The notes beneath the pieces were generated by a model that ran no database searches, was not told the origin of the DNA, and worked only from the letters and a program-made list of their open reading frames with translations. DNA of 35,775 bases from Planctomycetales bacterium (GTDB lineage: Bacteria; Planctomycetota; Planctomycetia; Pirellulales; S012-138), in NCBI GenBank assembly GCA_015488215.1, contig WFOE01000076.1:1-35775 (forward strand), given 5' to 3'. Shown one piece after another: positions 18,782 through 35,775 of this stretch. The translations under genes and the position numbers were made by a program. The stretch's first letter is position 1, and every line of letters begins with the position of its first letter.

Positions 18782-19301
18782 AACGGCAGAGGTTCCCCCG
18801 ACGAGCAACGTGCCGCCCACGGCGAGCCCCGAGCTTCAGCTCGGGGAGAACAAGAGCCGGGAGCGTCAGCTCCCGGAGGACGGCACGGCCGTCAGCGACT
18901 GGGTGCTGCCGCACCGAGGGCGTGGCGGCTTGGAGGCTTGGGGGGATGGGGGGAGAGCTTCCGCTCCGAGCAAGAATAAACGTTGATTTTCGGAAACGGC
19001 GAGCCGGGAACTTCAGTTCCCGGAGAAAAAGAACCAGCGTTTTTCCTCGGCTCTCCCCGGACTGAAGTCCGGGGCTCGCCGAGGACATGACGCAACACCA
19101 ACATGGCGGCACACCACCGGCAATTTTATACGGTGCCGAACGACTCCTTGGCGTGTGTTCCCGCCCCCTCAGGCCCCAAGCTCCAAGCCCCCTTTGGTCC
19201 GAAGCTTGCCGAAACGCCGACTAAAATCACCTGCCGACATACCCTAACGATTGCTTGGCTGAGTATGCTGAATACTTGGCACAGCAACGAATAGGATAAT
19301 C
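18782..19301. repeat. Palindromic repeat cluster A
   Basis: This 520-base gap between two prepilin genes contains four members of a 28-bp palindrome family. Forward units are at 18821-18848, 18854-18878 and 18998-19025; an inverted unit is at 19053-19080. Each has GGCGAG (or a trimmed form), an 8-base stem arm, a TTCA or GTCA loop, the complementary arm, and AG. Arms differ: CCCCGAGC, CCGGGAGC, CCGGGAAC and CCCCGGAC, each perfectly matched by its partner. Between them at 18879-18902 is a GGACGGCACGGCCG tract also found at 26311-26334, and at 18919-18950 a GGCTTGGAGG / GGGGGGATGGGGGG tract also found in cluster B. The remainder, 19081-19301, holds no gene and only degenerate words (CAACACCAAC; AAGCTCCAAGCC). 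Confidence 0.85.
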
Positions 19302-25882: not shown

Positions 25883-25998
25883 AAAACGGCAAGCGGCTTC
25901 CGCCGGTGCTGCCGCACCGGTGGGTCTTGCGTCTTGGGTCTTGAGCAGGGAGCTTCCGCACCAGAGGGCGTGGAGGCTTGGAGGCGTGGGGGGATGGG

Positions 25999-26080
25999 GG
26001 GAGCTTCCGCTCCGGTGCAAGAACAAGCGCCGACTCGTGCAAACGACAAACGGCGAGCCCCGAGCTTTAGCTCGGGGAGG
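25999..26080 (+). repeat. 82-bp composite repeat, copy 1
   Basis: The unit has a small hairpin GGAGC-TTCC-GCTCC, then a spacer of about 38 bases containing AAGAACAAGCGCCGACTCG, then one 28-bp palindrome. It recurs 335 bases downstream with one mismatch (C at 26046 against T). Confidence 0.85.
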
Positions 26081-26333
26081 AAAACACCAGCAAGTGTCTT
26101 CCACCGGTCCTCCCCGGACTGAAGTCCGGGGCTCGCCGAAGAATACGAACACAACCAACAGCGAGCCGGGAGCGTCAGCTCCCGGAGCCCAAAAGAAAAA
26201 GCAATCGTTGGTATACTCGCCACTCCGCGAGTTGACACTCGCGGCTCGCTGGATACACGACAATGTGCCGGATTCTCGCACTCGGCGAGCCGCCGACTTT
26301 AGTCGGCGGAGGACGGCACGGCCGCCAGCGACT

Positions 26334-26415
26334 GGGAGCTTCCGCTCCGGTGCAAGAACAAGCGCCGACTCGTGCAAACGATAAACGGCGAGCCCCGAGC
26401 TTTAGCTCGGGGAGG
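26334..26415 (+). repeat. 82-bp composite repeat, copy 2
   Basis: This is a direct repeat of 25999-26080 with 81 of 82 positions identical. Degenerate relatives with the same order occur at 18954-19025 and 33147-33220. Confidence 0.85.
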
Positions 26416-26525
26416 CAGTTCCAGCCGTCGGCCACTGGGAGCTGACCCAACGCCGCTTTGAAACCAGATGACCAGAGGCAAACGCCGAGCTTCCAAATAC
26501 ACGTTCGACCCCAGGAAACGGTCCC

Positions 26526-32815: not shown

Positions 32816-32956
32816 CGGTGGGAAACTCCTGGTTTTGCGAGTGGGTGGGAAAACGTCCATGTCCTTTCGGTCCGGGCGTGCTCGGCTGCCGGACCCAGGC
32901 GGCTATTACCATCTTAGGGTCCAATTCCTTCGGGGGGAGTCAATGGGAGTCGCGTC

Positions 32957-33330
32957 GGGAGGTCTTGCGTCTTGAGTCTTGCGTCTTGGGCAGGAGCTTC
33001 CGCTCCAGCGGAAAAAAACAAGCGTTTGCACTCGTGCTCGTACTCCTACTCGTGCTCGTAATCGGCAGCTCGTTATCGCCGACCGCGAATCGGCAATTGG
33101 CGAACCGCCGACTTCAGTCGGCGGAGGCGGCGGGGCCGCTGCCACTGGGAGCTTTCGCACCGATGCAAGAACAAGCGCCGATTCTCGCAACGGGCGAGCT
33201 CCGAGCTTCAGCTCGGGAAGAATAGCGAGCCGGAAGCGTAAGCTCCCGGAGAAAAAGAACAAGCAAGCGTTTTTCTCTGGTTTCTCCGACTCTCCCCGAA
33301 CTGAAGACCGGGGCTCGCTGTGGCCAACGG
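32957..33330. repeat. Palindromic repeat cluster C (degenerate) upstream of glyS
   Basis: The 582-base gap 32816-33397 between glyS and the oxidoreductase holds this cluster and no gene. Units are at 33099-33126 (arms CCGCCGAC, perfect), 33193-33220, 33225-33251 and, inverted, 33292-33318; the last three have mismatched stems, so this cluster looks older or decaying. A GTCTTG-rich run is at 32962-32990, a CTCGTN-like hexamer run at 33030-33062, and a degenerate 82-bp composite at 33147-33220. The remainder, 32816-32956, is the glyS leader; TTGACT occurs on the minus strand at 32938-32943 but without a well-placed -10. Confidence 0.8.
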
Positions 33331-34681: not shown

Positions 34682-35353
34682 AGGGTCTTTCTCCTGCAAG
34701 CAAGTCGCGGTCCACAAAGCGGGGCAGCGGCCGGCGCTGCAAACGGCTCTCCCCGGTCAGAATACTCCAATCGCTGGGACTTTTCATCCTGATTGCCTGT
34801 TTTCACCAGCGCAAAAACCGACCACGGCCCCCTCAAACGAATCCTAGCAGCCGCAGACCCTTGCCGACTGCAGCCTGCTGTGGGCGGCTTGTCGACAAGT
34901 GTCGCTGCAAACGGTGGACAATCCGTCCTCCCTTCCAACCACTGGGGAACAAATGCAAGCCGGGCCGAAGAGCGCGGCATCGTCCTCATCAAGCACAAGA
35001 CACCAAGCACAAAACACCGAGCATGACACAACACCAAGCCGCATAAATAACTTAGGATAACCCCCTGCTATTCCCAGCGAGTGCAAGAAGCCGGGACAGC
35101 CCCGGCTCCAAAGGACTTGCCCGGGGGAAGAGTGTCAGCTATGATTTAAGTCCGTGAAGGAGGTGTTTTGCCCGTTGGACCGGTCCGGCGAACCGCTGTT
35201 CGCTCGCCGGGGCTTGCGTTTTCCGGAGGGCTGTTAAACTAGAGTAGAGGGATACGTAACACGAGGGTGTCGCAAAACTTCCGGCCGCAAACGCCCGGCC
35301 CGCGGGTCGGACTAGCGCCGGAAGGCTTTGTGAGACGCACTCAGCAAAGGTGT
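34682..35353. other. Intergenic region between oxidoreductase and tRNA-Asn
   Basis: No gene is supported in these 672 bases. They contain a degenerate run of CACAAGACACCAAGC-like words (34991-35038), a 7-bp hairpin AGCCGGG/CCCGGCT at 35089-35107, a promoter (35117-35145) and a perfect AAGGAGGTG at 35157-35165 that leads only to reading frames of 20-24 codons. A 10-base palindrome GGACCGGTCC is at 35177-35186. Confidence 0.5.
35117..35145 (+). promoter_or_regulatory. Sigma70-type promoter upstream of tRNA-Asn
   Basis: TTGCCC at 35117-35122 and TATGAT at 35140-35145 are 17 bases apart. It would produce a leader of about 200 bases before the tRNA, unless another promoter lies nearer. Confidence 0.45.
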
Positions 35354-35426
35354 TCCCCGGTAGCTCAGTTGGTAGAGCAGCCGGCTGTTAACCGGCGGGT
35401 CCGAGGTTCGAGTCCTCGCCGGGGAG
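35354..35426 (+). tRNA. tRNA-Asn (anticodon GTT)
   Basis: A complete cloverleaf can be folded. The acceptor stem is TCCCCGG (35354-35360) with CCGGGGA (35419-35425), discriminator G at 35426. The D stem is GCTC/GAGC, the anticodon stem GCCGG/CCGGC with loop CTGTTAA, anticodon GTT at 35387-35389, and the T arm carries GTTCGAGTC. CCA is not encoded. The 3' part is a common attachment site for tyrosine recombinases, and an integrase end follows 61 bases downstream. Confidence 0.97.
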
Positions 35427-35473
35427 CTAAACGCTTGGAAATAAAGAGTTACAAGACGAATCCCGTGAAACCG

Positions 35474-35505
35474 AGCCGACTTGCGCCTCAGGGGCCAAGT
35501 CGGCT
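35474..35505. terminator. Inverted repeat between tRNA-Asn and integrase
   Basis: AGCCGACTTG at 35474-35483 pairs perfectly with CAAGTCGGCT at 35496-35505 around a 12-base loop. The integrase stop codon lies in the loop. It may terminate both convergent transcripts; the T-run after it is poor (TGTCTG). It could also be an arm site of the recombinase. Confidence 0.45.
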
Positions 35506-35775
35506 TGTCTGTTGGATTCCCCCCCGGTTCGTGCACACAGCGCACCCAATTGCGCACCCATTTTCCTGCCCCGGTTCTTCCCCCGCTTGGCCTTTGTCGG
35601 AACCAGTCCCGGCCGGGGGTGTTGCCGGTTCCTTGCGGGAGTTTGCTTCGGCGGTGGTGTCCGCTTCCCGGGGCACGCGGCGGAAGCGGCTGGCTTCCTT
35701 GAACATCTCTTGGGGAACGCGCCAGTAGTGCTCCCGGGCCACTTTCTCGCTATGGCCAAGCCACTCGGCTGCTAC
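35488..35775 (-). CDS. Tyrosine recombinase (phage-type integrase), C-terminal end, partial
   Basis: The gene enters from beyond the right edge and ends at 35488, leaving 95 visible residues. The first visible residues read VAAEWLGHSEKVAREHYWRV. The LGHS histidine and the downstream HYW tyrosine (codon 35725-35727) match the end of the catalytic domain, where this Tyr attacks DNA. After the tyrosine comes PQEMFKEAS and then about 70 residues rich in Ala, Glu, Gly, Pro and Thr without recognisable fold. The protein probably catalyses integration and excision of an element that lies to the right, with the tRNA as target. The N-terminal and Arg-containing parts are not in the window, so integrity cannot be judged. 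Confidence 0.8.
   Translation of the reverse strand, partial: VAAEWLGHSEKVAREHYWRVPQEMFKEASRFRRVPREADTTAEANSRKEPATPPAGTGSDKGQAGEEPGQENGCAIGCAVCTNRGGIQQTSRLGP

Follow-up and report, generated by a model that had tools for sequence, protein, structure and literature searches.

The window, by which we mean the whole stretch of DNA that was analysed, is the entire contig C76 (35,775 bases) of a 4.29 Mb assembly in 303 contigs. ARAGORN finds a single tRNA in it, an intact tRNA-Asn(GTT) on the + strand at 35354-35427. Facing this tRNA, the - strand from 35775 to 35491 encodes VAAEWLGHSEKVAREHYWRVPQEMF..., the C-terminus of a tyrosine recombinase, with a TGA stop codon at 35490-35488 that lies 61 nt from the 3' end of the tRNA. 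The original prediction had described this order of tRNA-Asn and integrase end, with the same 61-base spacing, and had noted that the gene runs out of the window; all three points hold, and the gene runs off the assembly contig as well. The features at this end of the window are as follows:

35354-35427, + strand: tRNA-Asn(GTT), the gene targeted for integration, with a 3' end that forms part of attL (ARAGORN)
35405-35428, + strand: att core GGTTCGAGTCCTCGCCGGGGAGCT, beginning in the T-arm and ending just beyond the 3' end of the tRNA (by sequence comparison with the core of the sister element)
35428-35487, - strand: stretch between the tRNA and the integrase stop, where the frame is open in the sister element and in 72 of 78 family members, through to the T-loop
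35472-35507: strong hairpin between the tRNA and the integrase gene, -27 kcal/mol, z -4.4 (fold computation)
35488-35775, - strand: 3' end of the tyrosine recombinase gene, encoding the catalytic C-terminus and linker, cut by the contig end
35519-35525: run of seven C (six in contig C78), a frameshift that ends the integrase frame of the window before the tRNA
35540-35559: GCGCACCC repeats starting at 35540 and 35552, a putative arm-type site

The hairpin lies within the element end, and may serve as a terminator for the tRNA or for the integrase gene.

The sequence from inside the T-arm of the tRNA to the end of the window (35400-35775) recurs in contig C78 of the same genome, with 96% identity (363 of 377 columns; 97% over 372 in another alignment). 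Because the frame of the C78 copy is complete, the integrase end in the window is not a chance reading. The complete integrase is 491 aa long from the chosen ATG, faces a tRNA-Gln(TTG), and matches PF00589 (53.1 bits, cut-off 27.1) and PF22022 (28.6, cut-off 27) above their gathering scores. Its frame continues through the tRNA, and the 61-nt gap in the window is there because of the extra C. C78 also encodes a Prim-Pol primase (PF09250; DNA primase phrogs) and a protein with a regulator-like C-terminus; in this one element, small size goes together with an integrase and a Prim-Pol replication gene, as in satellites and phage-inducible chromosomal islands. The start of C78 overlaps contig C263 by 54 identical nt, and C263 carries the right-hand core, GGTTCGAGTCCTGGCCGGGTAGCT, which lies 7.28 kb from the tRNA-Gln and matches attL exactly over 24 nt. 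The sister element therefore spans 7.3 kb between exact 24-nt attL and attR sequences. Its core, present at both ends, has two mismatches to that of the window, and its two att arms share a direct match of 15/16 nt (GCGCACCCAATTGCGC / GCGCACCCAATAGCGC), the first of which lies at 35540-35555 in the window. The predicted element boundary in the tRNA 3' end is borne out as an attL by this matching attL/attR pair.

With integrase DNA that is ~97% identical at tRNA-Gln and tRNA-Asn, a single genome offers a natural case of target switching. The tRNA-Gln site looks the older of the two, and the tRNA-Asn site a switch, because a relative of the same genus (G001) has a family integrase, 63% identical, at tRNA-Gln, in the same order behind the same Rex gene. 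A search with 1.5 kb of flank found no empty tRNA-Gln site in four relatives (G001-G004).

The original prediction also expected a second copy of the tRNA-Asn 3' segment to the right. None was found for the window copy at up to three mismatches, although in an assembly of 303 contigs the absence of a copy counts for little; the core otherwise matches only at the two ends of the tRNA-Gln element, in its attL and attR. Contig C234 begins with 111 nt that are 98% identical to the window end, but its integrase copy is gapped, lacking ~280 nt, and is followed by other genes, including those for DHODH and a glucuronyl esterase. We infer that C234 continues C76. Six window genes tried as a syntenic link between the two contigs had no match in the DHODH or tRNA-Asn contigs of relatives. 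Because the integrase fragment is frameshifted and C234 carries a gapped copy beside other genes, the window copy is probably the remnant of a decayed element. Alternatively, it could be a complete element whose right part is missing merely because the assembly breaks at repeated integrase sequence. C76 does end within sequence common to C78 and C234, and the assembly is in 303 contigs, but the frameshift, the lack of a second Asn-type core and, to the extent that C234 does continue C76, the gapped copy on the contig with the DHODH and esterase genes make a complete element unlikely.

Relatives of the integrase are present in 48 of the 57 genomes searched, a set made up of the genome of the window and 56 relatives; among the matches listed, we examined those covering most of the query. 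The original prediction had held that an order of tRNA and integrase fixed in all relatives would count against it, and the order is not fixed: such an integrase lies at tRNA-Asn in at least six of the 56, many of whose assemblies are fragmented. Matches also occur in 15 plasmid and 30 phage records, all below 60% identity. Tblastn pieces of at least 150 residues that reach query residue 330 gave a set of 95 rows from 94 loci; the window copy fell outside this filter, and the set does not include C22, C292 or C234. Seventy-eight of the 95 rows face a tRNA or tmRNA, of 15 kinds; the other 17 have no facing tRNA, three of them being cut by a contig end. Some members lie at genes that ARAGORN calls tRNA-SeC (L091, L114) and tmRNA (L042, L147).

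After removal of nine near-identical loci, a FastTree of 138 non-redundant integrases, with 16 kinds of target, required 68 changes of target, as compared to 94.2 (sd 2.4) with shuffled labels. Because 68 is fewer than expected from shuffled labels, tRNA targets appear to be inherited in part; strict fidelity to an isotype is ruled out by the same count, and the sequences indicate that targets switch often. Among pairs of integrases that are at least 70% identical, the isotype is the same in 10 of 25.

As separate observations on these loci, three contig ends in a second integrase subfamily (L029 6306-6456, L030 1-151 and L031 6151-6301) share 151 identical bases that adjoin tRNA-Arg(TCG) and tRNA-Arg(ACG); the assembly thus breaks at repeated integrases.

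The integrase frame of this family typically continues into the tRNA gene, on its antisense strand. Among 78 integrase-tRNA pairs, the frame is open from the catalytic domain to the T-loop in 72. Of the 78 stop codons, 66 fall inside the tRNA, seven beyond it and five before it, such that 73 frames end inside or beyond the tRNA. Similarly, among the named genome loci (the best 80 of 559, 77 of them with planctomycete names), 71 have a facing tRNA, and the stop lies inside or beyond it in 69 of the 71; this set overlaps the 78 pairs, with nine near-identical loci found. The named matches listed include the cultivated planctomycetes Lacipirellula limnantheis I41 and Alienimonas chondri LzC2. This could be an ordinary convergent integrase beside a tRNA, its open frame being an accident of GC-rich, stop-poor sequence. 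The linker is indeed low in complexity, and a fixed phase of the integrase frame relative to the T-loop can be discarded, since all three phases occur (49, 17 and 12 of 78). However, when the same stretches are read in the other two frames, only 13 and 19 of the 78 pairs are free of stops.

What lies on the far side of the element bears on the same question. In a first set of elements, we defined attR as an exact repeat of at least 13 nt, the reversed-sequence control giving at most 12, and found one in 18 of the 56 elements with room for it; the repeats are 13-45 nt long (only 13-15 nt in four of the 18) and 5-13 kb away. When the integrase frame is carried across the tRNA-derived core at attR, it often encodes a conserved helix-hairpin, "LA..v.aWP.LP..iR.aIL" (e.g. 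LARIIAAWPKLPEPIRKAILALI), which we refer to as the WP motif. Searching with a regular expression, we found this motif beyond the core in the integrase frame of 13 of the 18 elements, and in the other two frames of one and none of the 18 (1/36). The single off-frame match is in L127, where the integrase tail is broken; the other four elements without the motif in the integrase frame (L105, L107, L149 and L166) have no match. In a second set, from which the nine near-identical loci had likewise been removed, attR was an exact repeat of at least 14 nt, anything shorter being counted as not found, and the motif was scored with an HMM built on the first set. An attR was found in 6 of 38 elements, and in all six the frame is open for 56-76 codons past the core; four of the six have the WP motif in the integrase frame (E below 1e-6), as compared to 0/12 for the other frames, and the other two have no significant HMM match in the integrase frame. 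With both sets combined, 17 of 24 elements carry the motif in the integrase frame, as compared to 1 of 48 other frames, which argues against the motif being an unrelated small gene near attR. Two pieces of the motif matched no family in Pfam.

The genome of the window has the WP motif at several places: on C263, at the attR of the tRNA-Gln copy; next to a core that differs from tRNA-Arg(ACG) at three positions, in C212 (control 6); and on C120, where there is no recognisable core. In one relative (G012:C21), at what is apparently a tandem junction, an integrase fragment continues through a core into the WP motif. At a locus in another (L096 829-1264; G002:C595), the core beside a WP stretch has 7/24 mismatches to the tRNA-Val at the locus's own integrase and, by eye, matches the end of a tRNA-Leu(GAG) in C14 over ~20 nt, which may point to a past switch of target or to an older element nearby.

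Direct repeats between the two att arms, matching at 14 or more of 16 nt, occur in 15 of the 18 elements of the first set (control mean 11.8, single controls up to 14); no such repeat was found in the other three. These putative arm-type sites, identified from sequence only, would lie on both sides of the core, as in lambda-type systems.

Of 55 virus loci, three without a C-terminus were dropped, leaving 52. In six of these (four distinct: L257, L258 = L260, L267 = L270, and L269), the catalytic domain, the linker and the WP motif are encoded in one natural frame, as compared to none of the 80 named genome loci, which are the best 80 of 559. Three of the 52 face a tRNA, and 42 have neither a tRNA nor a WP motif in or off frame, eight of the 42 being cut within 150 nt by a contig end. 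L287 was rejected as an unsplit integrase, since its WP motif is off frame. When the virus contigs were scanned again with the unsplit form as query, the 34 loci that matched were all on contigs already found in the first scan.

Between the catalytic domain and the WP motif, L257 has a 21-mer identical to the 3' end of a tRNA-Glu(CTC) (control 6 mismatches), and L275 and L282, whose motif is weaker and below threshold, have a 21-mer with one mismatch to a tRNA-Val. L267/L270 have three mismatches to a tRNA-Ser (their own control 7, although the lowest control in that comparison, for L266, is 3), and L258/L260 and L269 have no convincing tRNA-like core (6 mismatches, equal to the control of 6). 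L270 can also be compared with L272, a virus contig whose integrase, 82% identical to that of L270, faces a tRNA-Ser in the integrated form. Their sequences can be aligned as far as GGGATTCGAACC in the T-loop, after which L272 continues into the tRNA and L270 into the WP stretch. The L270 contig has a head-protein gene ~5 kb from the integrase gene. The near-equal length of the L267 and L270 contigs might have indicated a circular phage, but this was ruled out, since the end of the L270 contig is absent from that of L267.

The fusion of integrase and hairpin as one natural frame in six virus loci largely refutes an accident of base composition, which we now regard as very improbable. Rather, because the WP motif lies in frame beyond the core, and because six virus loci but none of the 80 genome loci have natural unsplit frames, we conclude that the integrase gene contains attP within its 3' coding part. 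The core, the arms, the continuity of the frame, and the unsplit genes of viruses and split genes of genomes are all features of the sequences themselves. Very probably, then, the window ends at the attL of an element, itself probably decayed, of a planctomycete family with a lambda-like integrase, whose integration removes the tail of the integrase. Weighing against this reading are the elements without a recognisable motif in frame (5 of 18 and 2 of 6), the four short att repeats, the 17 integrase rows that face no tRNA, the unsplit loci L258/L260 and L269 with their unconvincing cores, the off-frame motif of L287, the 42 virus loci with neither form, the three elements without an arm repeat, and the failure to find an attR for the window copy or an empty site in the four relatives.

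The unsplit L270 integrase was modelled with AF2 from 29 sequences, and the model is consistent with this arrangement. It has a body at residues 1-370 (10-residue pLDDT means of 75-98), a linker at 377-454 with pLDDT below 50, and two predicted helices at 463-474 and 477-489 (10-residue means of 75-92). The best Foldseek matches of the model in the PDB are lambda integrase structures (1z1b and 1z1g, E 8e-12 to 1e-10). Residues R224, K250, R330 and Y361 (L270 numbering) are among the invariant columns of the 29 sequences; by analogy with lambda Int, we take these to be the catalytic R, K, R and Y, the residues characteristic of tyrosine recombinases (PF00589).

We propose that in the circular or phage form a single frame would encode an N-terminal domain (arm-binding, by analogy), the catalytic domain, a long flexible linker, and the C-terminal WP helix hairpin, and that the DNA of the linker would also hold the repeated arm sites and a core matching the tRNA 3' end, from T-loop to acceptor. 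Integration would recombine the core with the tRNA, presumably with crossover in the T-loop, and would leave an intact tRNA at attL. There the catalytic part would remain, its new end residues read from the antisense tRNA, and the piece encoding the hairpin would end up at attR. Targets shift among tRNA isotypes, as they do for the Gln and Asn copies described here.

The hairpin presumably has a role in the circular form. The likeliest role, in our tentative view, is that it makes the enzyme competent for integration. Its loss would then work as a built-in latch, and excision would require an unsplit relative or some other factor. We would rank this role above no role at all, and both above an instability tag. 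A passive tail, whereby the frame crosses attP only because the arm sites and core sit there, and regulation does not change when the hairpin is lost, seems to us possible but rather unlikely. The linker does double as arm-type repeats and is predicted to be disordered, the catalytic domain is whole after integration, and some elements have no recognisable WP motif. However, the motif is recognisable across integrases that are mostly 27-54% identical to that of L270, and it is predicted as a fairly confident helix hairpin, despite its separation from the catalytic part in integrated copies.

The hairpin might instead be an instability or inhibitory tag, such that integration stabilises or activates the integrase. 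There is a precedent in the integration-dependent immunity of mycobacteriophages. There, too, a coding sequence contains attP, the encoded protein loses its C-terminal piece when the phage integrates, and the new stop codon comes from bacterial DNA at or near attL (PMC9934374). In that system, however, the gene encodes a repressor, which is stabilised by loss of the ssrA-like tag that the piece carries (PMC9934374); in the planctomycete family, the gene with attP encodes the integrase rather than a repressor, and the piece is a helix hairpin. The attP tails share no ssrA-like ending, and a degron needs no folded hairpin, so we consider a tag improbable, more so than a passive tail. More broadly, these may be bacterial integrases that truncate themselves, and we raise this as a speculation a little more tentative than the latch itself. 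Each integration would swap the hairpin for an antisense-tRNA tail. Elements that move from one tRNA isotype to another would thereby have a latch that needs no separate directionality factor, and they would be excised through unsplit relatives in the cell or incoming phages.

The planctomycete integrases resemble lambda-type heterobivalent tyrosine integrases in their fold and in the direct repeats on both sides of the core, but they have the linker and hairpin as an extra C-terminal part. The lambda attP is not known to lie inside int, and in some phages the core overlaps the last few codons of the integrase gene. Phages and islands that target tRNA genes with a convergent integrase, such as Ms6 and those with the OC shape of the KplE1 study, likewise have a tRNA 3' end as attB and a core in the T-loop, and small changes of the core redirect Ms6 to other tRNA-Ala genes (PMC1762012, PMC2951348); the sections of this work available to us do not report an integrase frame that crosses the core into a conserved domain.

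The closest parallel is with the archaeal SSV-type 'suicidal' integrases (SSV1, pTN3, pT26-2), in which attP also lies inside the integrase gene and integration splits the gene; a review regards self-disrupting integrases as peculiar to archaea (PMC8371274). The SSV-type split separates an N-terminal piece from the piece with the catalytic domain (PMC8371274). By contrast, in the planctomycete family, which is found in bacterial genomes, attL retains a single frame that spans the N-terminus and the entire catalytic domain, and only the C-terminal tail is lost. The domains also differ: that of the SSV-type is given as PF16795 (Phage_integr_3) (PMC8371274), which is not among the Pfam hits of the C78 integrase at E values up to 0.001, the hits being PF00589 and PF22022. 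Our search of the open-access literature, with most subscription papers outside it, found no bacterial integrase gene that is split by integration. A bacterial family with a C-terminal cut would extend beyond archaea a trick described as their peculiarity, with catalysis spared, and makes it testable whether splitting its own integrase gene controls the direction of a mobile element. It would also explain integrase frames with GLEPTT-like C-termini, as seen here, which would derive from antisense tRNA. Moreover, the signature of a tRNA core inside an integrase frame, followed by a WP hairpin, would tell free from integrated forms in metagenomes.

The window has other repeats as well. A structured palindromic repeat of ~74 nt lies just upstream of the tRNA-Asn, at 35268-35341 (-40.4 kcal/mol, z -2.8); at least 34 other places in the genome match it at 73-89% identity (40 of 138 candidates scored), as in a dispersed REP- or MITE-like family. 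Intergenic repeats at 18815-19080, 25921-26443 and 32953-33318 likewise recur across contigs of the same genome (C234, C125, C22 and others).
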